A stretch of DNA of 64,000 nt from positions 1 through 64,000 of the forward strand of contig CABHPB010000014.1 of assembly GCA_902168115.1 (NCBI GenBank), in the 5' to 3' direction. Position 1 is the first letter of the stretch. Every line of letters starts with the position of its first letter. Shown here piece by piece: positions 16,953-62,078 of this stretch. The position numbers were made by a program, and so were the translations under genes. The stretch is from an uncultured Methylopila sp. (GTDB taxonomy: Bacteria; Pseudomonadota; Alphaproteobacteria; Rhizobiales; Methylopilaceae). The notes under the pieces are model-generated. The model made no database searches. It saw nothing but the letters and a program-made list of their open reading frames with translations, and was not told the DNA's origin.

Positions 16953-16977
16953 GGAACGACATGCGGCCAGCTTTGTT
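16953..16977 (+). promoter_or_regulatory. EcfG-type general stress promoter
   Basis: GGAAC at 16953-16957 is followed after 17 bases by GTT at 16975-16977, matching the EcfG consensus except for T in place of C at the start of the -10 box. It lies 35 bases before the start of the molybdoenzyme gene at 17012, a normal distance. Confidence 0.65.
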
Positions 16978-17011: not shown

Positions 17012-19291
17012 ATGGCCCGCGACGCCGAGCTCAAAACCTATGACGGACCTGCGGGTGGATGGGGCTCGGCGCGATCCGTGGCCGGGGCGCTGGTCCGCGA
17101 CCGCGCCCCGCTGAAGAGTGCGGCCGCCCTTGCGAAGCAAAACAAACCCGGCGGCTTCGCCTGCGTTAGCTGTGCATGGTCGAAGCCGCGCGACCCGCAT
17201 GTGTTCGAGTTCTGCGAGAACGGCGCGAAGGCGACCGGCTGGGAGCTCACCTCGAAGACGATCGGCCCGGAGTTCTTCAGCCGGCACCCGCTGGCCGAGC
17301 TGGAGACCTGGTCGGACTTCGCCCTCGAGGATCAAGGCCGGCTAACCATGCCGATGAGGCTCAATCGGGCGACCGATCGGTACGAGCCGATCGCATGGGA
17401 CGCGGCGTTCAAGGAAATCGGCGCGGCGCTCAAAGCCATCGAGCCGAAGCGTGCTGTGTTCTACGCTTCGGGGCGGGCCTCGCTCGAGGCCTCATACATG
17501 TACCAGCTGCTCGCGCGCGCCTACGGCACCAACAGCCTGCCGGACAGCTCGAACATGTGCCACGAGAGCACCTCCGTCGCGCTGCCCGAGAGCATCGGGC
17601 AGCCGGTCGGCACTGTGTTCCTGGAGGATTTCGATCACGCCGACTGCATCCTGTTCTTTGGCCAGAATGTCGGGTCGAACTCGCCCCGCATGCTGCACCC
17701 GCTGCAGGAGGCCCGGAAGCGCGGCGCGTCGATCATCACGTTCAACCCGCTGAAGGAGCGCGGGCTCGAGCGCTTCATCAACCCGCAGGCGCCGACCGAG
17801 ATGCTGACCGGCGCCGAGACGACAATCTCGACGCAGTATTGCCAGCTGAAAGCCGGCGGCGACCTCGCGGCGCTGTTCGGCATGTGCAAGGCGCTCATCG
17901 CCATGGACGACAGGGCGGTCGCGGAGGGTCTTCGCCGCGTCGTCGACGCCGACTTCATCCGCGAGCACTGCCACGGTGTCGAGGCTTTCAAGGACGCCTG
18001 CCGGGCGCGCGACTGGGCGGATCTCGAAGCGCGATCCGGCCTTGGGCGCCGGGAGATGGGGCAGGCGGCGGAGGTCTACGCCAATTCGAAGGCCGTGATC
18101 GGCGTCTACGGCATGGGGCTGACGCAGCACCGCCTCGGCGTCGACAACGTTCAGATGCTCATGAACCTTCTGCTCCTGCGCGGGAACGTCGGCCGGCCGG
18201 GCGCGGGGATTTGTCCGGTGCGCGGACATTCCAACGTGCAGGGACAGCGCACGGTCGGAATCACCGAGAAGGTGAAGCTTGCTCCGCTGGAAAAGCTGCA
18301 GGAGCTCTATGGCTTTAAGCCGCCCCGCGAGGACGGCATGGCGACTGTCGACGCCTGCAAGGGCGTGATCGACGGCGAGGTCGAGGCCTTCGTCTCGCTC
18401 GGCGGGAACTTCCTACGCGCGGTCCCCGAGACCGGCGCGATGGAGGACGCCTGGCGCCGGTTGAAGCTGTCGGTCCAGATCGCCACCAAGCTCAACCGCA
18501 GCCATGTCGTCGGCGCGAAGGCCGCCTATCTGCTGCCTTGCCTTGGCCGCATCGAGATCGATCGGCGGGACGGCGCGCCGCAGTTCGTCTCGGTCGAGGA
18601 TTCGACCTCGCACTTCCACGCCTCGCACGGTTTCGCCGAGCCCGCGGCCGACACGCTGACGTCCGAGCCCGCGATCATCGCCGGGATCGCGCAGGCTGCG
18701 CTCGCCGCGAACCCGCGCATCGATTGGGCCGCCTGGGCGAAGAACTACTCCCTTGTCCGCGACGCCATCGAGGCGACCTATCCCTCCGTTTTCCCGGACT
18801 TCAACGCCCGCATCGAAACGCCCGGCGGCTTCCCGAAGCCGCTCGCCGCTCGCGAGCGAAGCTGGAAGACGGAGACCGGCAAGGCGAACTTCGTATTTCC
18901 GCAGGCGCTCGACGAAGACCCCGACATGCCGGCGAGGTCGCCGAACGCGCTCACGCTGATCACGCTGCGTTCCAACGACCAGTTCAACACGACCGTCTAT
19001 GGCTATGACGACCGGTTTCGAGGCGTCGAGGGCACGCGGATGGTGGTGCTGATGAACGCGAAGGACATCGCGCGGCTGTCGCTCGCCAACGGTCAGACGG
19101 TGACGATGCGGACGATTGCGGACGACCGCCTACGGCAAGTCCAGGGTTTTCGCGTCACCGCCTATGACATTCCTGAAGGTTGTGTCGGAGCATATTACCC
19201 GGAATGCAATCCACTCATCCCGCTCTGGCACCACGCGAAGGTCTCAAAGGTCCCCGCCGCGAAGGCGATCCCGGTGACCATTCACGGGTAG
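17012..19291 (+). CDS. FdhF/YdeP-family molybdopterin oxidoreductase
   Basis: A 759-residue molybdenum enzyme related to formate dehydrogenase H and YdeP. It has a short N-terminal cysteine motif (CVSCAW, residues 51-56) instead of a full four-cysteine cluster site, the active-site region LPDSSNMCHEST, and molybdopterin dinucleotide binding regions including YGMGLTQHRLGVDNVQ, CPVRGHSNVQGQ and the C-terminal LRSNDQFNTTVYGYDDR. YdeP proteins are tied to acid resistance and their substrate is unsettled. ATG 17012 has an AGAGG upstream and an EcfG-type promoter 35 bases away, so stress induction is likely. No partner subunit gene is adjacent. Confidence 0.92.
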   Translation: MARDAELKTYDGPAGGWGSARSVAGALVRDRAPLKSAAALAKQNKPGGFACVSCAWSKPRDPHVFEFCENGAKATGWELTSKTIGPEFFSRHPLAELETWSDFALEDQGRLTMPMRLNRATDRYEPIAWDAAFKEIGAALKAIEPKRAVFYASGRASLEASYMYQLLARAYGTNSLPDSSNMCHESTSVALPESIGQPVGTVFLEDFDHADCILFFGQNVGSNSPRMLHPLQEARKRGASIITFNPLKERGLERFINPQAPTEMLTGAETTISTQYCQLKAGGDLAALFGMCKALIAMDDRAVAEGLRRVVDADFIREHCHGVEAFKDACRARDWADLEARSGLGRREMGQAAEVYANSKAVIGVYGMGLTQHRLGVDNVQMLMNLLLLRGNVGRPGAGICPVRGHSNVQGQRTVGITEKVKLAPLEKLQELYGFKPPREDGMATVDACKGVIDGEVEAFVSLGGNFLRAVPETGAMEDAWRRLKLSVQIATKLNRSHVVGAKAAYLLPCLGRIEIDRRDGAPQFVSVEDSTSHFHASHGFAEPAADTLTSEPAIIAGIAQAALAANPRIDWAAWAKNYSLVRDAIEATYPSVFPDFNARIETPGGFPKPLAARERSWKTETGKANFVFPQALDEDPDMPARSPNALTLITLRSNDQFNTTVYGYDDRFRGVEGTRMVVLMNAKDIARLSLANGQTVTMRTIADDRLRQVQGFRVTAYDIPEGCVGAYYPECNPLIPLWHHAKVSKVPAAKAIPVTIHG

Positions 19292-47235: not shown

Positions 47236-47829
47236 GTGATCACCACATCCACATTCGACAGCCGCCCGGCCTACGGCGGCCTCAGCCTGGACGAGCGGGC
47301 GAAAAGCCACCTCGTCGTCGCCGAAGGCGACGGCGCCTCGGCCGTGCTCGACGCCTTCGAGGACGCGCCGCCGAGCCTCGCCCGGACGACGCTGCTTTAC
47401 GCGGGACCGGACGGAATGGCGGTTCGGCTCGCCATTCTTGGCGCCGCGGAGTTCCGGCGGACCAGCGGCCGTCTGGACCTGATGAACCGGCTCGACGAGG
47501 TGTTCGCGACCTCGAAGATGGGCGCCCGCCTCTACGTCGCCGGGACCGAGAGCTTCATCGGCGAAGTGATCGCCAAGGCCGCGACCTATGGCGTGGTCCC
47601 ACAATCCGTGATCGCCGAGCAGCGCGGCTCGCTCGCCCGGCGCGTCCAGTGCGTGCACTGCAAGCATGTCGACGAGGAGGTGACGGCGACCCCCTACGCA
47701 TGCGGCGGTTGCGGCCAGAGCCTGTTCGTCCGTGACCACTTCTCACGACGGCACGCAGCTTTCCAGGGCGTGCGGGTCGACGCCGAGGTTCCGGGCGAGA
47801 TCCCGGCCGCCGAGGAGCTGGTCCAGTGA
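47236..47829 (+). CDS. DmmA-like small subunit of heme-dependent oxidative N-demethylase
   Basis: A 197-residue protein resembling DmmA, a subunit of dimethylamine monooxygenase/heme oxidative N-demethylase. The first 130 residues form an alpha/beta domain (LVVAEGDGASAVLDAFEDAP; YVAGTESFIGEVIAKAATYG), and the C-terminus has a zinc-ribbon pattern CVHC...CGGC followed by RDHFSRRHAAFQGVRVDAE. It starts at GTG 47236, 63 bases after the permease, and its end overlaps the reductase start by four bases. It probably relays electrons or holds the reductase and heme subunits together. Confidence 0.82.
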   Translation: MITTSTFDSRPAYGGLSLDERAKSHLVVAEGDGASAVLDAFEDAPPSLARTTLLYAGPDGMAVRLAILGAAEFRRTSGRLDLMNRLDEVFATSKMGARLYVAGTESFIGEVIAKAATYGVVPQSVIAEQRGSLARRVQCVHCKHVDEEVTATPYACGGCGQSLFVRDHFSRRHAAFQGVRVDAEVPGEIPAAEELVQ

Positions 47830-48788
47830 GCGGCGGCGTCGAAATTCCCGTCGTCGTCTCGGACATCGAGCAGGCCACGCCGACGGTGCGGCGCTTTCGC
47901 CTGACGGCGGCGAGCGGCCAGCCCCTCCCGCATTTCGCCGCCGGCTCGCATGTCGTGGTGATGATGGAGAGCGGCGAGCGGATCATCCGCAACGCCTACT
48001 CGCTCGTCGATCGCGCCGAGGACGGCTCGAGCTACAGCATAGGCGTGCTGAAGACGCGGGACTCCCGCGGCGGCTCGAGATTCATGCACGAGCGCGTCGA
48101 GGTCGGCAGCCGCCTGAAGATCTCCATGCCAGTGAACCTGTTCCCGGTGTTCGCACCGGGCCGGCGGCACCTGCTCGTCGCGGGCGGCATCGGCGTCACG
48201 CCGATTTACGCCATGGCGGACGAACTCAAGCGCCAGGGCGCCGACTACGAGATCCACTATGCGGTCCGCGACGAGGCGCATGGCGCGTTCGTCGGCGAAC
48301 TGCGCGAGCGCCACGGCGACCGGCTGACGCTCTACCGCAGCGACCTCAGCGAGGTCTTGGCGGTGAGAGAGATTCTGCCGGGTCAGCCCTTCGGGACGCA
48401 TCTTTATGTCTGCGGCCCGCAAGGCATGATCGACGCGGTGCTGGAAGGCGGGCGCGAGGCCGGATGGCCGAAAGAGCACCTGCATTCCGAGCACTTCCAG
48501 GCGCCGCCCTCGGGCGATCCGTTCTCGGCGCGGCTTGCGAAGGCCGGCATCACCTGCGAGGTGCGGTCCGACCAGAGCCTGCTCGAGGCGCTCGAGGAGG
48601 CGGGCGTCGACGCCCCGTTCCTGTGTCGCGGCGGAGCCTGCGGGCAGTGCGAAGTCGCGGTCGTGGATGCGGACGGCGAGCTCGTCCACAACGACCACTA
48701 CCTCTCCGAGGACGAACGCTCCTCGGGCAGGAAGATCATGCTCTGCGTCTCGCGCCTGAAGGGCCGCGAGCTGGTGCTGGACCTGTGA
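47826..48788 (+). CDS. Ferredoxin-reductase subunit of the N-demethylase (DmmB-like)
   Basis: A 320-residue reductase of the phthalate dioxygenase reductase type. It has a flavin domain (RIIRNAYSLVDR), a nicotinamide domain (LLVAGGIGVTPIYAMADEL) and a C-terminal plant-type [2Fe-2S] domain with C267, C272, C275 and C307. It passes electrons from NAD(P)H to the heme subunit. The GTG start overlaps the DmmA-like stop (GTGA). There is a 184-bp gap with a GC-rich hairpin before the heme subunit gene. Confidence 0.92.
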   Translation: MSGGVEIPVVVSDIEQATPTVRRFRLTAASGQPLPHFAAGSHVVVMMESGERIIRNAYSLVDRAEDGSSYSIGVLKTRDSRGGSRFMHERVEVGSRLKISMPVNLFPVFAPGRRHLLVAGGIGVTPIYAMADELKRQGADYEIHYAVRDEAHGAFVGELRERHGDRLTLYRSDLSEVLAVREILPGQPFGTHLYVCGPQGMIDAVLEGGREAGWPKEHLHSEHFQAPPSGDPFSARLAKAGITCEVRSDQSLLEALEEAGVDAPFLCRGGACGQCEVAVVDADGELVHNDHYLSEDERSSGRKIMLCVSRLKGRELVLDL

Positions 48789-48972
48789 CGCCGACCCGCG
48801 CAGGCCCTCTCGTGCGCTTCGGGACGCCCGCCCCGCGGGTTCCCCGGCGTGACGGCGTTCCGGGGCTTAGCATCCTCCCGCGCCCCTCATGGCCGAAGGA
48901 GGCCCGAGCGGGCCGTCCCGAGGCGCACCGATCCTCTCTTTCACCTGTTCTCGACTGCAGCGGATTCGACCG

Positions 48973-50013
48973 ATGACCCTCCACTTCAAGAAAGAGACGT
49001 TCCGCGACGACTACACCTTTTCGAACTCGCCGGAGGCGATCCGTCGCTTTCCGTTCCCGTTCGAGAAGGACGAGTACATGTACTCGGTCAATATCGAGCA
49101 GCACATGCCCGGGCCGCAGAAGTCGGCCTTCGAGTTCCCGATCGACATCGACGAACACTACGTCGCCGAGATGGAGGATCGGGCCAAGGTGCTGGCGCAG
49201 GATCCCGGCCGCTGCCAGTCGCTGCCTCACATGATCACGGCGGAATGGGATCTGCTGGAGCTCCTGATGGAGTCCATGTCGAAGCACTATCCCGAGCACT
49301 TCCAACTGACACGCGACGGCGACGACTGGCGTTGGGTGAACAAGCCGCTCGGCGTCGACCAGCGCTTCGTCTTCGGCGACGTCTCGACGCTGCCCTATCC
49401 GCCGATGGAGTACATCACCCGGCAGTGCCAGGGCGACTTCGCGCTGCTCGACCAGCGTCTCGACAATCTCTGGATGGACGCCGGCGTCATCACCGCGCAG
49501 GCCGACTGGTCGCTCGACTTCGACATCGGCATGAACTTCATGGAGTGGCACGCGCCGGTGCCGCTCGCCAAGGACATGGGCATCTTCGAGCGGGCGCTGA
49601 AGTTCCTGATGAACCTGCAGCAGGGCCGTCCCGTCCGGCGCCTCAACTGGACCATGACGATCAATCCGCGGCTCGATACGAGCCCCGAGAACTACGACAA
49701 GTGGGGCGTCGAACGGACCACGGTGACGCCCGAGAACGTCGGGAACAAGGTGCATCTGCGGGTCGAGTTGCAGGCCATGTGGCGGCTTCCGCGCTCGAAC
49801 GCGATCGTGTTCTCGATCCGGGCCTACATGATCAAGATGGAGGAGCTGGTGACGGTCCCGAAATGGGGTCGGCGGTTCCACCGCGTGCTGCGCGACGTGA
49901 AGCCCGAGCTCGCCGAGTACAAGGGCCTGACGCGCTACCGTCAGATGACGGTCGACTGGCTGTCGAAACACGACGACGGCGCGCCGACCTCGCCCGGCTT
50001 CGCCCCCGACTGA
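48973..50013 (+). CDS. Heme-dependent oxidative N-demethylase alpha subunit (DUF3445)
   Basis: A 346-residue DUF3445/HODM-alpha protein, the heme-binding PAS-like catalytic subunit that oxidatively removes N-methyl groups and releases formaldehyde. Family stretches seen: RRFPFPFEKDEYMYSVNIEQ, CQSLPHMITAEWDLLELLME, LDFDIGMNFMEWHAPVPLAK, RVELQAMWRLPRSNAIVFSI and a C-terminal RYRQMTVDWLSKH. The length is normal. With the reductase, DmmA-like and GcvT-like subunits next to it, the complete four-part enzyme is encoded here. Confidence 0.92.
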   Translation: MTLHFKKETFRDDYTFSNSPEAIRRFPFPFEKDEYMYSVNIEQHMPGPQKSAFEFPIDIDEHYVAEMEDRAKVLAQDPGRCQSLPHMITAEWDLLELLMESMSKHYPEHFQLTRDGDDWRWVNKPLGVDQRFVFGDVSTLPYPPMEYITRQCQGDFALLDQRLDNLWMDAGVITAQADWSLDFDIGMNFMEWHAPVPLAKDMGIFERALKFLMNLQQGRPVRRLNWTMTINPRLDTSPENYDKWGVERTTVTPENVGNKVHLRVELQAMWRLPRSNAIVFSIRAYMIKMEELVTVPKWGRRFHRVLRDVKPELAEYKGLTRYRQMTVDWLSKHDDGAPTSPGFAPD

Positions 50014-50123
50014 TCCCGACCTGCACGAGCCGTCCGGCCGGAGCCCTCTCTCCTCCGACGCGCCTGCCGGCCGCCGGGCAGGCTCGTGCAGTCCCATCGC
50101 AATCCCGTACACGGAGACATCAC

Positions 50124-51251
50124 ATGGACGCCCAAGCCTTCACGCGCACGAACGCGCTTCAGTCCGTCCACCGCGAACTCGGCTCGAAGCTCGACAGCGG
50201 CTGGAACGGCATGGCCATCCCGCAGAGCTACGCGACCGACCCGTATGAGGAGGTGGCGATCGTCCGGTCCAGGGCCGGCCTGTTCGACGTTTCGGGGCTG
50301 CGCATCATCAACGTTTGGGGCCCGGACGCGTCCGCGGTGCTGAACCGGATGCTGACCTCGGACATCGACAAGCTGCAGGCGGGCAAGTCGGCGATCTCAA
50401 ACATCGTGGACGAGAACGGCAACCTGATCGACGACGTCCTGGTCTATCGCGACGGCGCGACCGAGTTCCGGCTGAGCCATGGCGGAGGCAACCTCGACAG
50501 GGTCATCGGCGGCTTCTTCGACGGCTCGCGGTCGAAATGGGAGAAGGACGACGACGTCCACATCCTGTCGCTGCAGGGCCCGCTCGCGCTCGACATCCTG
50601 AAGCCCCACGCCGGGAAGGACCTCTCGACGCTGAAGTATTTCGAGCACGCGCCCAACACGCTGTTCGGCAAGTCGGTCTCGATCGGTCGCGGCGGTTATT
50701 CGGCCGAGCGCGGCTACGAGGTGTTCTGCACCGCCGCCGACGCGCCGGTCCTGTGGGCGCAGATCATGAAGGCGGGCGAACCCTTCGGGATCTGCGCCGC
50801 CTCGTGGGACTGCCTCGACATCGTCCGCGTCGAGGGCGCGCTGCTGTTCTTCCCCTTCGACATGCCGAACGGCGACGAGACGCCCTGGGAGGTCGGTGCC
50901 GACTGGACGGTCGATCTGTCGAAGCCCGACTTCCACGGCAAGGCCGCGCTCGAGCGCCGCAGGACCGAGGTGCGCTACGCCAATGTCGGCCTCGAGATCG
51001 ACGCCCACGAGGCGATCGAGCCCGGCGCGAAGCTGCTGAAGGACGGCAAGGAGGTCGGCGTCGTCAATTCGACGACCTACAGCCGGCATCTGATGCGCTC
51101 AATCGCGCTCGCGCAGGTCACGCCCGACCTCACCGCGGTCGGAACCTCGTTCGAGGCGAAGTCCGAGAAGGGGACCTTCGCGGCTCACGTCGTGCGCACG
51201 CCGTTCTACGACCCGCATCGCCTGCGCACCCACCCGCTCGACGAGCGCTGA
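50124..51251 (+). CDS. GcvT-like folate-binding subunit of the N-demethylase
   Basis: A 375-residue aminomethyltransferase/GcvT-fold protein. Markers are SRAGLFDVSGLRIINVWGPD, LSLQGPLALDIL, GGYSAERGYEVFCTAADAPV and the C-terminal domain SKPDFHGKAALERRRTEVRY. In the demethylase this subunit is thought to capture formaldehyde on tetrahydrofolate and protect the cell. GGAG lies eight bases before ATG 50124. It ends 63 bases before the Xre gene. Confidence 0.9.
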   Translation: MDAQAFTRTNALQSVHRELGSKLDSGWNGMAIPQSYATDPYEEVAIVRSRAGLFDVSGLRIINVWGPDASAVLNRMLTSDIDKLQAGKSAISNIVDENGNLIDDVLVYRDGATEFRLSHGGGNLDRVIGGFFDGSRSKWEKDDDVHILSLQGPLALDILKPHAGKDLSTLKYFEHAPNTLFGKSVSIGRGGYSAERGYEVFCTAADAPVLWAQIMKAGEPFGICAASWDCLDIVRVEGALLFFPFDMPNGDETPWEVGADWTVDLSKPDFHGKAALERRRTEVRYANVGLEIDAHEAIEPGAKLLKDGKEVGVVNSTTYSRHLMRSIALAQVTPDLTAVGTSFEAKSEKGTFAAHVVRTPFYDPHRLRTHPLDER

Positions 51252-52322: not shown

Positions 52323-53030
52323 TCAGGAGCACTGATAGCCGATCCGGTAATTCACCTCGGCGGTTCCGAAGGAGTTCCCGGGAGACCCAAGGTAGATTCC
52401 GAACTCGATCAACTCGCCGGCGACGATCGGGAACGCCGCGGTGCGGGTCGCAGCAGGGAGGTACCTGATCCCCAGGCTCGAGATGTAATAGCTGTAAGCG
52501 CCGTCCTCGGTCGGCGCCCCGCCGTTCCGCTTGATGGCCAGGCGGTAGAAGGGCCCGGTTTGTCCGGCGGCGATCGGGGGAGACTGGCTTATCTGGGTAG
52601 TGCCCCAGACAAGGCACGTCGCGTTCGCCGGCGCTCTGAACGCAGTCGTCCCGAAGTAATAATTGGCCGTGGGCGGCGACGCGGGGATCGTTCCCGTCAG
52701 CGGGCCGGAATGTCCTCTCGGCCCGGCCGGTCCAGGAAGGCCTTGCGCTCCGGTAGCGCCTCTCGGGCCCGCGGGACCCTGCGGCCCTGCGGGACCGGCT
52801 GCCCCGGCCGGACCTGTGGCGCCCGCCGGACCTTGCGGGCCTTCGGGACCCGCGGGCCCCCGAGGTCCCCGCTTGCCGCGCGGCCCGCGCTTGCCCGCTT
52901 CCGACCCGACGTCGCCCTGGTCGGCCTCCGCGGAAAAAAGGTCCTCCGCGACCTGCGCGTGTGCGCCGTGAACATTGAGATAACCGGCGCCCGCCAGAAG
53001 CGCTGATGCAAGAAACAGCTGACCGCGCAT
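52323..53030 (-). CDS. Secreted collagen-like protein
   Basis: A 235-residue exported protein: signal peptide [20 protein letters not shown] ending GAHA, a short acidic linker, about 22 Gly-X-Y triplets rich in Pro, Ala and Arg ([20 protein letters not shown], continuing to [11 protein letters not shown]), then a ~110-residue globular C-terminal domain with one Cys pair ([12 protein letters not shown]). The triplet block should form a trimeric collagen-like helix and the C-terminal domain should nucleate it. It is probably a surface or periplasmic fibre. Frame start M 53030 has GGGGGAG upstream. Confidence 0.85.
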
Positions 53031-53304
53031 GCCTGAGAACTCCCCCTGCGTCATTCGCAGTCGAAGCTGTCCCAAGGTTTGAGTGGCTCGCAATCCGTAC
53101 TTCTACTTGCTCAGGCCTCTGGCCGCCCCCTGCGCTCCCACAAGCACCGAAACTCAAGCGCCAGGGCGCCGATCGGATCAGCGAGAGCTACGGCGCGATG
53201 ATGGCCGCCTGCGGCGTGGCGGGCCTGCCTGCTCCAGCCTCGGCAGGCGTCGCTTTGCCGATTTCGAACGGAACATTCCGGAAACAGACGCGATTTCTTG
53301 GCGG

Positions 53305-53329
53305 GGAACGATGTCGATCGACTCTCGTT
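53305..53329 (+). promoter_or_regulatory. EcfG-type general stress promoter
   Basis: GGAAC at 53305-53309, 17 bases, then GTT at 53327-53329 (CGTT including the preceding base). It is 29 bases before the start of the GntA-like gene at 53358. A full match to the consensus. Confidence 0.7.
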
Positions 53330-53357
53330 TACGACAAAACGAGTGTTTGAGGTGCGC

Positions 53358-54035
53358 ATGTCTTTTGACGTGACAGGGTCTATCGATCGTTTTCAGAAGT
53401 TCATCGAAGACAGCGAGTTTCCCTGCGTCGGCGCGAAGTCCGCCCTGCGGCGCGATCAGACGAAATTCTGGACAGGACGCGATCTTCGGGACGGATCCCA
53501 GGATCGAGACCTTCTGTCGTCGCTTTACGACTTCATCGACTGGTACAAGCGCGACGGCGCCATGTTCGCGACCTTCGTCGCGATTTTCGACGGGCCGGAG
53601 GGGCTGACCGAGAAGGAGTTCGAGCGCGCGCTGTGGGATCGCCTCGAGGCGCTGCATCTGCTGGACGCCGAGACCTACGACTGGGACGAGAAGGTCTCGC
53701 AGGACCCGGATTCGAATTTCTTCGGCTTCAGCCTGAAGTCCGAGGCGTGTTTCGTCGTCGGCCTGCACGACGGCTCGAGCCGCGCCGCCCGCCGGTTCGA
53801 ACGGCCGACCCTCGTGTTCAACCTCCACGAACAGTTCCAGAAGCTGCGGGAGGAAGGCCGCTTCGAGCCGTTGCAGGACGCGATTCGCAGGCGCGACGAG
53901 GAACTCGACGGCTCGATCAACCCGATGCTGTCCAATCACGGCCAGGACACCGAGGCGAAGCAGTACAGCGGCCGCGAGGTCGGCGACGAATGGCGTTGCC
54001 CGTTTCAGCCGGGCGAACGCGATCACGCGACGTGA
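53358..54035 (+). CDS. YqcI/YcgG (GntA-like) heme-dependent N-hydroxylase family protein
   Basis: A 225-residue protein of the YqcI/YcgG family (PF08892), whose characterised member GntA is a heme-dependent N-hydroxylase in guanitoxin biosynthesis. The family landmarks are present: FPCVGAKSALRRDQ near the N-terminus, LYDFIDWYKRDGAMFATFVA, DSNFFGFSLKSEACFVVGLH and the C-terminal EWRCPFQP. ATG 53358 has GAGG seven bases upstream and an EcfG-type promoter. Its stop overlaps the DUF1989 gene (GTGA). The substrate is unknown; a guanidino or amino compound is the leading guess. Confidence 0.88.
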   Translation: MSFDVTGSIDRFQKFIEDSEFPCVGAKSALRRDQTKFWTGRDLRDGSQDRDLLSSLYDFIDWYKRDGAMFATFVAIFDGPEGLTEKEFERALWDRLEALHLLDAETYDWDEKVSQDPDSNFFGFSLKSEACFVVGLHDGSSRAARRFERPTLVFNLHEQFQKLREEGRFEPLQDAIRRRDEELDGSINPMLSNHGQDTEAKQYSGREVGDEWRCPFQPGERDHAT

Positions 54036-54634
54036 CGGCGAACGTCATCGAGCCGCGGTCGGGCGTGGCGTTCGAGCTGATGAAGGGCCAGGTGCTGGAG
54101 GTGATCGACGCCCAGGGCGAACAGGTCGCCGACCTCGTCGCCTTCGCGCGCGACGACGTCGACGAGGCGATCTCGTCGGGCCGTTCCATCGACTACGCGT
54201 CGCGGATCTTCCTGACCAAGGGCGACCCGATCTACTCGAACCGCAGCCGCGTCATGCTGACGATCGTGAAGGACACCGTCGGCCGCCACGACTTCCTGCT
54301 GACGCCCTGCAGCTCCGACACGTTCCGGATCATCTACGGCCACGACCATCCTCATCGCGGGTGCCACGGCAACCTCGCCGCGGCGCTGGCTCCGTGGGGC
54401 GTCGGCGCGGACCGCATCCCGGTCGCGTTCAACGTCTTCATGCATGTGGACGTGAACGGCGAGACCGGCGAGCTCAAGGTGTTGCCGCCGAAGAGCAAAG
54501 CCGGCGACCATGCGCGCTTCCGCGCCGAGATGGATCTCGTGATCGGACTGACCGCCTGCTCGGCCGGGCAATCCAACAACCACAGCTTCAAGCCGATCCA
54601 CTACCGGGTGCTCGACGCCGACGACATGGCGTGA
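54032..54634 (+). CDS. DUF1989 (urea carboxylase-associated family) protein
   Basis: A 200-residue DUF1989 protein. Relatives include urea-carboxylase-associated proteins that in some bacteria deiminate carboxyguanidine. The conserved TPCSSDTFRIIYG, GCHGNLAAAL, FNVFMHVDVNGETGELKVLP and the late LTACSAGQSNNHSFKPI are present, giving Cys and His residues suited to a metal site. It starts at GTG inside the stop of the GntA-like gene, so the two are made together and probably act in sequence. Confidence 0.88.
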   Translation: MTANVIEPRSGVAFELMKGQVLEVIDAQGEQVADLVAFARDDVDEAISSGRSIDYASRIFLTKGDPIYSNRSRVMLTIVKDTVGRHDFLLTPCSSDTFRIIYGHDHPHRGCHGNLAAALAPWGVGADRIPVAFNVFMHVDVNGETGELKVLPPKSKAGDHARFRAEMDLVIGLTACSAGQSNNHSFKPIHYRVLDADDMA

Positions 54635-55022: not shown

Positions 55023-55523
55023 TCAAGCGGCCTTCTTCTGCGCCTTCATGTTGGCGGCGGTTTCGCCGAGCTTGCTCAGATCGCCATCGGTCTTCTTCTC
55101 CTCCGCCAATGTCTCGTCGATCAGCTTGACGGCTTCGGCGAGGCCGAGCGCGCCGGCCCACGTCTTCAGCGTCCCGTAGCGCGCGATCTCGTAGTGCTCG
55201 ACCGCTTGGGCGGCGGCGACGAGGCCGGCGTCCAGCGCAGGCTCGCCCTTGAACTCCTCGAGGATCTCCTCGCCTTCGGAGAGGATCCCCTCGATGGCGT
55301 CGCAGGTCTTGCCCCGGGCCGGCTTGCCGATGAGCTCGAACACCTGCTGCAGCCGCTCGATCTGCCCTTCCGTCTCGTCCTTGTGCTTCTCGAACGCGGC
55401 CTTGAGCTTCGGATCCTGAGCACCCCGCGCCATCTTGGGCAGTGCTTTCAGGATCTTCCGCTCGGCGTAGTAGATGTCCTTCAGAGTCTCATGAAAGAGC
55501 TTGTTGAGGTCTTTATCCGCCAT
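55023..55523 (-). CDS. YciE/YciF-type ferritin-like protein (DUF892)
   Basis: A 166-residue paralogue of the protein at 13892-14371. Conserved helices: FHETLKDIYYAERKILKALP, HKDETEGQIERLQQVFELIG, TCDAIEGILSEGEEILEEFK and AAQAVEHYEIARYGTLKTWA; Glu and His residues suit a di-metal site. It ends with a Lys-rich tail (MKAQKKAA). A full EcfG-type promoter lies 36 bases upstream, which the left-hand paralogue lacks. Confidence 0.93.
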   Translation of the reverse strand: MADKDLNKLFHETLKDIYYAERKILKALPKMARGAQDPKLKAAFEKHKDETEGQIERLQQVFELIGKPARGKTCDAIEGILSEGEEILEEFKGEPALDAGLVAAAQAVEHYEIARYGTLKTWAGALGLAEAVKLIDETLAEEKKTDGDLSKLGETAANMKAQKKAA

Positions 55524-55558: not shown

Positions 55559-55583
55559 AACCTTTCCACGCGCGAAGGGTTCC
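55559..55583 (-). promoter_or_regulatory. EcfG-type general stress promoter
   Basis: Minus strand GGAAC (55583-55579), 17 bases, GTT (55561-55559), 36 bases before the YciE-like start at 55523. Confidence 0.68.
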
Positions 55584-59485: not shown

Positions 59486-61567
59486 TCACGCCAGCGTGCG
59501 GACGTTCGGCTCGCGGTCCCAGTAGCGCTTCTTCGCCGCCTCGACGAAGCCCTTGAGATCGACGACGCCCTCGTCCGGCTCGACGCCCGCCTTGTCGAGC
59601 AGCGGCTTGGCGTCGGCGTTGTGGCCGATCGCCTTCAGATGTCCGAAGGCGTCCATCACCCACTGGACCGCCGCGCCCTCCCTGGCCAGCTTCGCCGCCG
59701 CCTCGGCCGACAGGATGACCGCGCAGGCGTCGACCGTGACGGACGGCTGCCCGAACAGCTGGGCGTCGGCCTCGATCGCCGAGCCGTCCGACAGGGGCAC
59801 CTGCCCGACCTTCGGCGCGATCAGCATCGGGTGGCCGCCGGCCGCCTTGACGCCCTCCTTCACCGATTTGAGCTCGGCGGCGTCCGTGCCGTCCGCAAAC
59901 AGGATGCCCACCGTCCGGCCCTCGAGCGTATGCTTTTCGAGCGGCCCGCGGATGATCCGCAGCGCCGGGGACGGCTCCATGTCGATCGGAGCGACCTTCG
60001 CCGCGGACGCCTTCGGAAGCTCCATGGCCAGCCCGTCCGCCACCCGGCGCGCCAGCTCCTCGTCGACGTTGCGAAGGTTCGCCATCATCGTGAGCCTGAT
60101 GTGCGGCAGCGAGACCTTGCTGAGCTCGAAAACGAAGGCCGACGCGATATGCGCCTGCTCGGCCGGGTCCATGGAGCGCCAGAACAGGCGCGCCTGGCTG
60201 TAGTGGTCGGCGAAGCTTTCGGCGCGGATGCGCAGCTTCTGGCCTCCCTCTTCGGCCGGGAATGTCCTGAAGCCGTTCTCGGGGTCCTCGCGCGGACCGC
60301 CGATCTCGCCTGCGAGATGCAGCGAGTTCGGCTCGTAGTTCGCGCGGCCCTTTGGGGCGTGCATCTGCATGTGGCCGTCGCGCTGCATGTTCTGGAACGG
60401 GCACCCGCCCTCGCGCCCCTTCGCCTGATTGACCGGGATCTGGTGCCAGTTGGTCGAGCCCAGCCGCTTGATCTGCGTGTCCTGGTACGAGAACAGCCGG
60501 CCCTGCAGCAGAGGATCGTTGGAGTGGTCGATGCCCGGCACCAGATGGCTCGGGCAGAACGCGACCTGCTCGGTCTCGGCGAAGAAGTTGTCGGGATAGC
60601 GATCGAGCACGAGCTTGCCGACGACGCGGACCGGCAGGACCTCCTCCGGGATGATCTTGGTCGCGTCGAGCACGTCATAGGGCTGGCTGTTCGCGAACTC
60701 CTCGTCGAACAGCTGAACGCCCAGATCCCATTCGGGATAGTCGCCGCGCCCGATCCGCTCGAACAGGTCGCGGCGCTGGTAGTCGGGATCGGCGCCGGCC
60801 GTCTTGACGGTCTCGTCCCAGATCGACGAGGCCAGGCCCGCCTTCGGCTTCCAGTGGAACTTGACGAAGGTGCTCTTCCCGGCCTTGTCGACGAAACGGA
60901 AGGTGTGGATGCCGAACCCTTCCATGGTCGCGAAGCTCTTCGGGAGGGTTCGGTCCGACATCGCCCACATGATCATGTGGGTGGATTCCGGCATCAGGCT
61001 GATGAAGTCCCAGAAGGTGTCGTGCGCCGTGGCGGCCTGCGGGTAGCCTCGATCCGCCTCCATCTTGGCGGCGTGGACGAGGTCCGGAAACTTCATCGCG
61101 TCCTGGATGAAGAAGACCGGGATGTTGTTGCCGACGAGGTCCCAGTTGCCCTCGCGGGTGTAGAACTTTACGGCGAAGCCGCGCACGTCGCGCGGCGTGT
61201 CGACCGAGCCCGCGCCGCCGGCCACGGTGGAGAAGCGGACGAAGACGTCGGTCCGCTGGCCCTTTTTCTGGAACAGGTCGGCGCGCGTGACGTCGGCGAG
61301 GCTGTCAGTGCACTCGAAGTAGCCGTGCGCGGCGCTTCCGCGCGCATGGACGATGCGCTCCGGGATCCGCTCATGGTCGAAGTGGTTGATCTTCTCGCGA
61401 TAGACCTCGTCCTCCAGCAGCACGGGGCCCCGTTCGCCCACCTTCAGCTGGTTCTGGTTGTCGCTGACGGGCGTGCCGTGGTTCGTGGTGAGGACCGGAT
61501 GATCTGCGTCCGTGACCTGGTGGGTCTCGCCGCCGTTGGCGATGTCGCGTGATGCTTTTTTGGCCAT
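59486..61567 (-). CDS. katE: Large-subunit (clade 2) catalase
   Basis: A 693-residue heme catalase that splits hydrogen peroxide. Catalytic His81 lies in [12 protein letters not shown], the distal Asn region in [20 protein letters not shown], and the heme-binding Tyr in [14 protein letters not shown]. Residues ~530-690 are the extra flavodoxin-like C-terminal domain ([20 protein letters not shown]), typical of HPII/KatE-type enzymes. The frame is intact, unlike the paralogous pseudogene at 4842-6027. An EcfG-type promoter lies 27 bases upstream. Confidence 0.97.
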
Positions 61568-61593: not shown

Positions 61594-61618
61594 AACGACC
61601 GGGCCCTGAACTTGTTCC
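61594..61618 (-). promoter_or_regulatory. EcfG-type general stress promoter of the catalase gene
   Basis: Minus strand GGAAC (61618-61614), 17 bases, GTT (61596-61594), 27 bases before the catalase ATG. Confidence 0.7.
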
Positions 61619-61700: not shown

Positions 61701-61725
61701 GGAACGGCGTCCCTCAGGAGGCGTT
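61701..61725 (+). promoter_or_regulatory. EcfG-type general stress promoter
   Basis: GGAAC at 61701-61705, 17 bases, GTT at 61723-61725 (CGTT with the preceding base). 39 bases before ATG 61764. Divergent from the catalase promoter 83 bp away. Confidence 0.7.
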
Positions 61726-61763: not shown

Positions 61764-62078
61764 ATGAGCGACGCCGCCACCCTGCTGATGATGCCCGACG
61801 GCGATACGCCCCGGTCGGCCGACTTCGCGGCGGGCGACGTGTTCGGGACGTTCGAGGCCGCGATACGGACGGCGCATGAGCGCGTGGCCCCGACCGGGCC
61901 GCTCGTGCCATGGATCCTGTTCGGCGGCGCGATCATGGACCCGGCGCAGGTCATGGGGACCAACACGCCGCCGGCGCCCCTGAAGGTGGCGGAAGGCGCG
62001 GAGGTCAGCGACCGCCTCGACGCGGACCTCGAGAACACGTTTCCGGCGAGCGATCCGCCGGCGCGCACCGCGCCGTAG
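61764..62078 (+). CDS. Small protein with TFPASDPP motif, paralogue of 22152-22466
   Basis: A 104-residue protein: MSDAATLLMMPDGDTPRSAD, a helix (FEAAIRTAHERVAP), VPWILFGGAIMDPAQVMGTN, and the C-terminal VSDRLDADLENTFPASDPPA. It is the closest match to the protein at 22152 over its full length. ATG 61764 has GAGG nine bases upstream and an EcfG-type promoter. It is probably a general-stress protein; its function is unknown. Confidence 0.78.
   Translation: MSDAATLLMMPDGDTPRSADFAAGDVFGTFEAAIRTAHERVAPTGPLVPWILFGGAIMDPAQVMGTNTPPAPLKVAEGAEVSDRLDADLENTFPASDPPARTAP

Follow-up and report, generated by a model that had tools for sequence, protein, structure and literature searches.

An overlapping YqcI/YcgG-DUF1989 gene pair behind an EcfG-type promoter in an uncultured Methylopila: conservation and a putative two-enzyme pathway

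Gene layout and surroundings of the pair

The window, i.e., the whole 64,000-nucleotide stretch of DNA that was analysed, carries two overlapping genes on the plus strand. The first (53358..54035) encodes a 225-aa protein of the YqcI/YcgG family, hereafter YcgG, which is predicted from PF08892, NF041366, and a profile alignment with AglA to be a heme-thiolate N-oxygenase with Cys23 as the ligand. The second (54032..54634) has a GTG start and encodes a 200-aa DUF1989 protein with predicted zinc cysteines at positions 93, 111, and 176. The TGA stop of the first gene (54033-54035) lies over the GTG start at 54032, giving the GTGA overlap (54032-54035) that a previous sequence-only reading had described. 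The EcfG-type (general stress) promoter motif GGAAC-N17-GTT, which that reading had placed upstream, was present as an exact sequence (53305..53329, plus strand), with GGAAC starting at 53305 and ending at 53309, 17 intervening bases, GTT at 53327-53329, and 28 bases between GTT and the ATG at 53358. A GAGG at 53349..53352 (plus strand), with the ATG 5 bases on, reads as a likely ribosome-binding site.

The identified flanks were a collagen-like gene upstream on the minus strand and, downstream, genes for DUF892 and PepSY proteins, an MHYT-PAS sensor kinase, and a long catalase. The window contains seven GGAAC-N16-18-GTT sites; 20 shuffles averaged 3.65 and gave 7 at most, and the site count in the window alone is little proof. 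Four of the seven stand directly before genes within 8.4 kb, namely the pair, the DUF892 gene (55023..55523, minus strand; site beginning at 55583, minus strand), the catalase gene (59486..61567, minus strand; site at 61594-61618, minus strand), and the gene for a small protein without a Pfam match (61764..62078, plus strand; site at 61701-61725). In Chenggangzhangella, the closest relative (L019/L170), a homologue of the small protein (by eye) lies directly upstream of the pair (L170), and a PepSY homologue with 31% identity is also nearby. Because of the four promoter-type sites in 8.4 kb and these two homologues, the pair seems to sit in a stress island.

The collagen-like (Gly-X-Y) protein (52323-53093, minus strand) adjoins the pair, and its C-terminal part has no assigned family. 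Elsewhere in the window, a second GGAAC-N17-GTT (16953-16977, plus strand) lies about 35 bases before an ATG near 17012 and may mark a further EcfG target. At 47826-51251 (plus strand), genes for a 2Fe-2S reductase with a DmmA-like N domain, the alpha subunit of a heme-dependent oxidative N-demethylase (HODM), and a GcvT-like protein (by eye) stand one after another, with an XRE regulator and a cupin gene next to them downstream; this is likely an N-demethylation block. A candidate reductase of the general PDR/VanB class lies at 47826-48788. A shared island with this block was rejected as a general link, since neither of the two closest relatives has the block in the vicinity of the pair (about 6 kb).

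Clustering of the flanking open reading frames of at least 90 aa in the best 80 loci among the matches listed, some of them with short flanks, revealed no third conserved gene. The next cluster after YcgG, DUF1989, and an apparent antisense shadow comprised 16 loci and looked antisense too (clusters were not individually annotated), and no reductase, transporter, import/export, or tailoring gene was conserved beside the pair in these best 80 of the listed matches. Genes for a PF05175 small-domain methyltransferase and a PF10017 EgtD-like histidine methyltransferase were seen beside or near YcgG in L060, L080, L090, L094, L098, and L153/L169 (Pfam run on L169); they were dismissed as part of the module and regarded as local, since they are confined to these six Methylobacterium-type loci. 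On a Sphingomonas insulae plasmid (L105, 4633-5810), a nucleoside deaminase gene follows the pair, with overlapping ends.

Conservation of the pair and its promoter

A check proposed together with the sequence-only reading, a search for PF08892-PF09347 neighbourhoods in other genomes, bore out the linkage. Among 385 Alphaproteobacteria genomes, PF08892 was detected in 15, with a DUF1989 gene directly after it in 11. The YcgG match of one paired genome (G045) was split into two pieces, one with a stop; five copies in G033, G162, and G260 reached only 25-34 bits with the pair-type profile, and G245 gave a weak match. A profile built from the paired DUF1989 proteins (E up to 1e-40, at most 8 candidates scored per genome) found this subfamily in exactly the 11 genomes with paired YcgG and in 0 of the 374 others. 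The Pseudomonadota sample contained PF08892 in 22 of 398 genomes (23 copies, 22 paired), and six genomes (G000, G012, G110, G244, G283, and G325) were common to both samples. In the species-genome scan, the two genes lay within 260 bases in 71 of the best 80 of at least 581 confirmed loci (at least 596 stretches), a set biased to close relatives because only the best 80 were kept. All ten genomes with an unpaired copy, i.e., nine with an unpaired locus and G513 with an extra unpaired copy, hold a pair-type DUF1989 protein (302-371 bits), and in seven of them a YcgG copy is within the same fetched locus. Asticcacaulis (L092) has the two genes in divergent orientation with about 1.3 kb in between, and two Sphingopyxis genomes (L180, L181) have DUF1989 without YcgG within the 3.6 kb fetched.

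Pairwise distances of the two proteins were correlated (Mantel r 0.76, 103 pairs; maximum of 999 permutations, 0.19), and shared species history contributes to this value. Unpaired alphaproteobacterial copies fell inside paired clades of the YcgG tree (support 0.36 to 0.93), and 103 paired proteins stood apart from 18 others in the DUF1989 tree, with a local support of only 0.668. A start-codon candidate for DUF1989 was present at -30 to +20 of the YcgG stop in 80 of the 87 alphaproteobacterial pairs checked, 36 of which had a 4-base NTGA overlap. Overall, these comparisons indicate that PF08892-PF09347 is a conserved two-gene module in the alphaproteobacteria examined. Two of the five low-scoring YcgG copies in G033, G162, and G260 (L016, L017) lie in frames of 6,502 and 8,199 codons, which are NRPS-sized, and are far from the pair type.

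Sequence sets differed slightly between analyses. Three broken or weak loci (L014, L015, L018) were left out of the alignments, and the truncated L099 was left out of the Mantel test and the DUF1989 tree. The duplicates L024, L036, L154, and L155 (of L006, L009, L019, and L020) were dropped from the 114-locus motif count and the YcgG tree and kept in the residue counts (104 rows) and the DUF1989 tree; L024 and L036 were also kept in the 90- and 80-locus counts. L002-L004, L016, and L017 were outside the 114-locus motif count, and the motif loci L107-L136 were outside the protein sets.

The pair occurs in Pseudomonadota, Bacteroidota, Deinococcota, and an Oligoflexus MAG, and PF08892 was found in 4 of 18 genomes of the window's own family. 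Both Pfam families are present in Bacillus subtilis, where ycgG and ycgI presumably lie close together. Of 20 plasmid records, 16 were taken (H3, H10, H19, and H20 were left out) and themselves examined, and 12 carried the pair, from Sphingomonadaceae, Skermanella, Comamonadaceae, Hymenobacter, Chryseobacterium, and Deinococcus; the Hymenobacter DUF1989 was outside the plasmid table and was found by profile. The unpaired records were two Streptomyces plasmids and those of Rahnella and Priestia. The pair thus looks accessory and mobile. No viral contigs matched the single-protein patterns, and a phage collection gave three records with DUF1989, one of them 8.6 kb long and unannotated. In MT836826.1 (H21, 'Bacteriophage sp.', 8.6 kb), the DUF1989 at 1481-2056 is 46% identical to that of the pair, and the record is possibly bacterial DNA.

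The motif GGAAC-N16-18-GTT was found upstream of 56 of 90 relatives (two duplicate locus pairs included); dinucleotide shuffles gave 0.68 on average. On the opposite strand of these stretches it was found in 13 of 90, again more often than in the shuffles (0.68), and divergent stress genes might, for instance, account for this excess. With spacers of 17 or 18 bases, and among the matches listed, 48 of 80 upstream stretches contained it, whereas 26 of 8,732 tiles taken from these loci as controls did. Across 114 non-redundant loci, the GGAAC-N16-18-GTT motif stood in the 260 bases upstream of 57 of the 87 alphaproteobacterial copies that are paired (an exact motif is missing from the other 30) and of 7 of the 10 that are not; of the 17 copies from outside Alphaproteobacteria, 13 paired and 4 unpaired, none had it. 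Of eight further plasmid copies, two of the five from Alphaproteobacteria had it and none of the three from Betaproteobacteria. Among 65 of the best 80 loci, 16 of 27 genera or MAG groups showed the motif at least once, including 20 of 23 Methylobacterium loci and 0 of 8 loci, some unpaired, of Sphingomonas, Sphingobium, Sphingopyxis, and Sphingorhabdus. The EcfG assignment, originally read from a single site, is strengthened by this distribution, and an EcfG-type promoter is, judging from the motif, conserved across alphaproteobacterial relatives.

The site fits the promoters of the EcfG/PhyR/NepR regulon, which are GGAAC-N17-20-GTT in Sphingomonas melonis (PMC6599016) and GGAAC-N16-CGTT in Sphingopyxis granuli (PMC7083833). 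Both species also use -35 variants, which an exact scan would miss (PMC6599016, PMC7083833). The window's genome encodes NepR, whose locus has a GGAAC-type site, and contains 72 GGAAC-N16/17-CGTT sites against 25 for a reversed control pattern. The words YqcI, YcgG, and DUF1989 are absent from the main text of both regulon papers in the parts available, and our literature search found no paper linking YqcI with a sigma factor or general stress.

Protein families and predicted cofactor sites

YcgG matched PF08892 with 201.8 bits (cut-off 27) and contains FPCVGAK at residues 21-27 and RCPF at 213-216, in agreement with its previous family assignment. It also reached 263 bits with the NCBIfam GntA model NF041366 (equivalog cut-off 145). 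Searched alone against the PDB, it matched no solved structure (phmmer, E up to 0.01); structures of AglA were matched only by the family profile (E 1.9e-24 to 1.3e-23), which includes two AglA-type rows. According to our own reading of the profile alignment, AglA Cys44 corresponds to YcgG Cys23 (Cys in 103 of 104 paired rows, one gap), Arg166 to Arg145 (104 of 104), Phe152 to Phe132 (95 Phe and 9 Tyr of 104), and Phe182 to Phe160 (104 of 104). The conserved ligand cysteine and heme-propionate arginine favour the heme-dependent N-hydroxylation proposed earlier, and YcgG is predicted to be a heme-thiolate N-oxygenase; the chemistry is carried over from the family by inference. The conserved cysteine had already been noted in 2010 and guessed to be a peptide anchor (PMC2922099).

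Regarding the substrate, AglA Lys225 corresponds to Glu199, with Glu in 97 of 104 rows by the same reading. In AglA K225E, this Glu anchors the amino group of free arginine, which is hydroxylated at N-delta (PMC12866846), and ChmN of the same family hydroxylates free arginine (PMC10849742). Glu199 is not diagnostic, since it is also present in the natural-product-type copies L002-L004, L016, and L017. The pocket differs from that of AglA because Lys196 is replaced by Tyr or Phe (beside an insertion, where the alignment is uncertain), Arg179 by His, and Gln177 by Asn. The substrate is probably a guanidino compound, e.g., arginine.

The DUF1989 protein matched PF09347 with 187.5 bits (cut-off 27), the sole domain found in its 200 aa. 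Cys93 and Cys111 are present in all 104 paired rows and Cys176 in 103, the remaining row being truncated; the same three zinc cysteines occur in the trimethylamine N-oxide (TMAO) demethylase Tdm (PMC12560246). Profile score, fold, and these cysteines all fit a zinc protein. Two Tdm structures matched it by sequence (E 1.2e-11 and 3.1e-11), and it scored 81.2 bits with the Tdm model NF053776 (cut-off 1100). By our own alignment reading, the position of Tdm Asp346 is Leu, Gly, or Glu in 87 of 104 rows. The window's genome also encodes two closely similar Tdm-like proteins in frames of 775 and 792 aa (L163, G000:C150:2412-2918; L164, G000:C109:94619-95125), which are candidate TMAO demethylases.

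The earlier suggestion that this protein is tied to urea or guanidine carboxylase systems found no support here. It scored 107.2 of 284.7 and 88.3 of 205.95 bits with the UAAP2 and UAAP1 models (TIGR03424/TIGR03425), far below both cut-offs, and fell into the separate tree group described above. No urea carboxylase over the cut-off was found in the window's genome, which is 98.4% complete (best TIGR02712 score, 562.6 of 1303.85 bits, on other contigs). A carboxylase over the TIGR02712 cut-off was present in 6 of the 13 genomes searched and stood beside the pair in none of the six.

Proposed pathway, alternatives, and relation to known systems

On the most likely reading, the two genes encode a general-stress pathway in which heme-thiolate N-oxygenation of a guanidino compound is followed by zinc-dependent hydrolysis. 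EcfG-RNA polymerase would transcribe both genes from the one promoter under general stress, and the stop-start overlap would couple translation of YcgG and DUF1989. YcgG would bind heme via Cys23, receive electrons from a reductase encoded elsewhere, and N-hydroxylate a small guanidino compound, with free L-arginine or a close derivative as the best guess. DUF1989, with zinc on Cys93, Cys111, and Cys176, would then hydrolyse the N-oxygenated product, e.g., by deimination. Hydroxylation followed by hydrolysis is plausible and putative; for the full chain, in which heme and zinc occupancy, substrate, reaction order, and product are all inferred, we would put the likelihood slightly short of even. 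A more specific and widespread route is unlikely in our estimation: the heme-thiolate enzyme, P450-like but unrelated, would oxidise a nitrogen of arginine (or free guanidine), and DUF1989, as a zinc enzyme, would split the product and so set free a nitrogen species that is reactive or acts as a signal (hydroxylamine, hydroxyurea, N-hydroxycitrulline, or an NO-like compound, for example).

Reaction order is not fixed by gene order, and DUF1989 could instead make or expose the substrate, e.g., by deiminating or dealkylating a precursor, which YcgG would N-oxygenate to an N-hydroxylated stress metabolite destined for accumulation or export. Such an order would suit the six characterised family members, which serve natural-product biosynthesis (PMC12866846), and the PQ-loop/SemiSWEET-type transporter gene after the pair in Chenggangzhangella (L170), but the best 80 loci show no conserved transporter or tailoring gene beside the pair, and we consider the reversal improbable. 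An import or export gene is likewise conserved in none of these 80 loci, which counts against a detoxification role, as does the putative nature of the chemistry. The pair would in that case remove a guanidino or amino-acid analogue, its own or plant-made, that is harmful under stress, with no useful metabolite made; the scattered distribution (PF08892 in 4 of the family's 18 genomes) and the plasmid copies (pair in 12 of 16 records) fit such an accessory defence trait, to which we assign a comparably small chance.

Amine chemistry, in which YcgG would oxygenate a methylated amine and DUF1989 would cleave the C-N bond as Tdm does, appears less probable still. DUF1989 is the metal-binding domain of Tdm (PMC12560246), the Tdm structures match the paired protein, and the genome holds both the Tdm-like proteins and the HODM gene upstream of the pair. 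However, Tdm Asp346, whose position is mostly Leu, Gly, or Glu in the pair, is a proposed iron ligand (PMC12560246), the HODM block is missing near the pair in the two closest relatives, and the family substrates in the consulted literature are guanidines. Co-regulation of two enzymes acting on unrelated substrates would accommodate the two Sphingopyxis genomes with DUF1989 apart from YcgG (L180, L181), but it is hard to reconcile with the exact co-occurrence in 385 genomes and with the presence of the partner in all ten genomes that have an unpaired copy, making this the least likely explanation, with very little probability.

A tightly linked, stress-controlled pair across several phyla would imply that bacterial stress physiology includes a nitrogen-oxidation step that is common yet unstudied. 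If N-oxidation indeed releases nitrogen species, the pair would be a general-stress counterpart to nitric-oxide synthase. N-oxygenation by the pair would also give the YqcI/YcgG family a physiological, non-antibiotic role, in contrast to the six characterised bacterial members, all counted in natural-product pathways (PMC12866846). The pair is a small, directly testable system.

Our literature search, which had most subscription papers outside its reach, found no paper joining the two families. In Escherichia coli, we take ycgG and ycgI to be genes other than those of these two families. One paper contains both names, as E. coli gene names in the part available, and the available part of a Bacillus subtilis transcriptome paper mentions ycgG. 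The characterised DUF1989 proteins that we met act in guanidine carboxylation (PMC11271267) and TMAO demethylation (PMC12560246), as far as these texts were available.

The previous label 'GntA-like' is correct only if taken as loosely as in the NCBIfam model, whose cut-off YcgG exceeds (263 vs 145 bits). Unlike in guanitoxin biosynthesis, no gnt-type gene was found among the identified neighbours of the pair (reductase, HODM, XRE, cupin, collagen-like, DUF892, PepSY, kinase, and catalase), and the data examined here gave no support for guanitoxin production. Because the NCBI name 'guanitoxin biosynthesis heme-dependent pre-guanitoxin N-hydroxylase GntA' stands on 14 of 20 plasmid records in four phyla, it is probably an over-broad and misleading toxin label, as the pair itself suggests.

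A carboxyguanidine deiminase was reportedly the subject of Schneider et al. in 2020. That name has been given to CgdAB of the DUF1989 family (PMC11271267). CgdAB and UAAP1-UAAP2 share the Pfam family with the pair, and one protein of each carboxylase-linked tandem pair keeps the three cysteines, whereas the paired DUF1989 lies far under both curated cut-offs, groups separately with weak support (0.668), and has no urea/guanidine carboxylase over the cut-off in its genome. Tdm shares the DUF1989 domain with its three zinc cysteines but is a three-domain protein with a GcvT domain (PMC12560246), whereas the paired protein is a single 200-aa domain. AglA, the YqcI/YcgG heme-thiolate arginine N-hydroxylase of the argolaphos pathway (PDB 9ub3 and others), produces a phosphonate antibiotic and depends on AMPn-Arg, whereas no biosynthetic cluster was seen around the pair, which at the positions of AglA Lys225, Lys196, Arg179, and Gln177 carries Glu, Tyr/Phe, His, and Asn. 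The two nevertheless belong to the same family by profile, and the ligand Cys, the heme-propionate Arg, and both gating Phe positions of AglA are kept in the paired YcgG.
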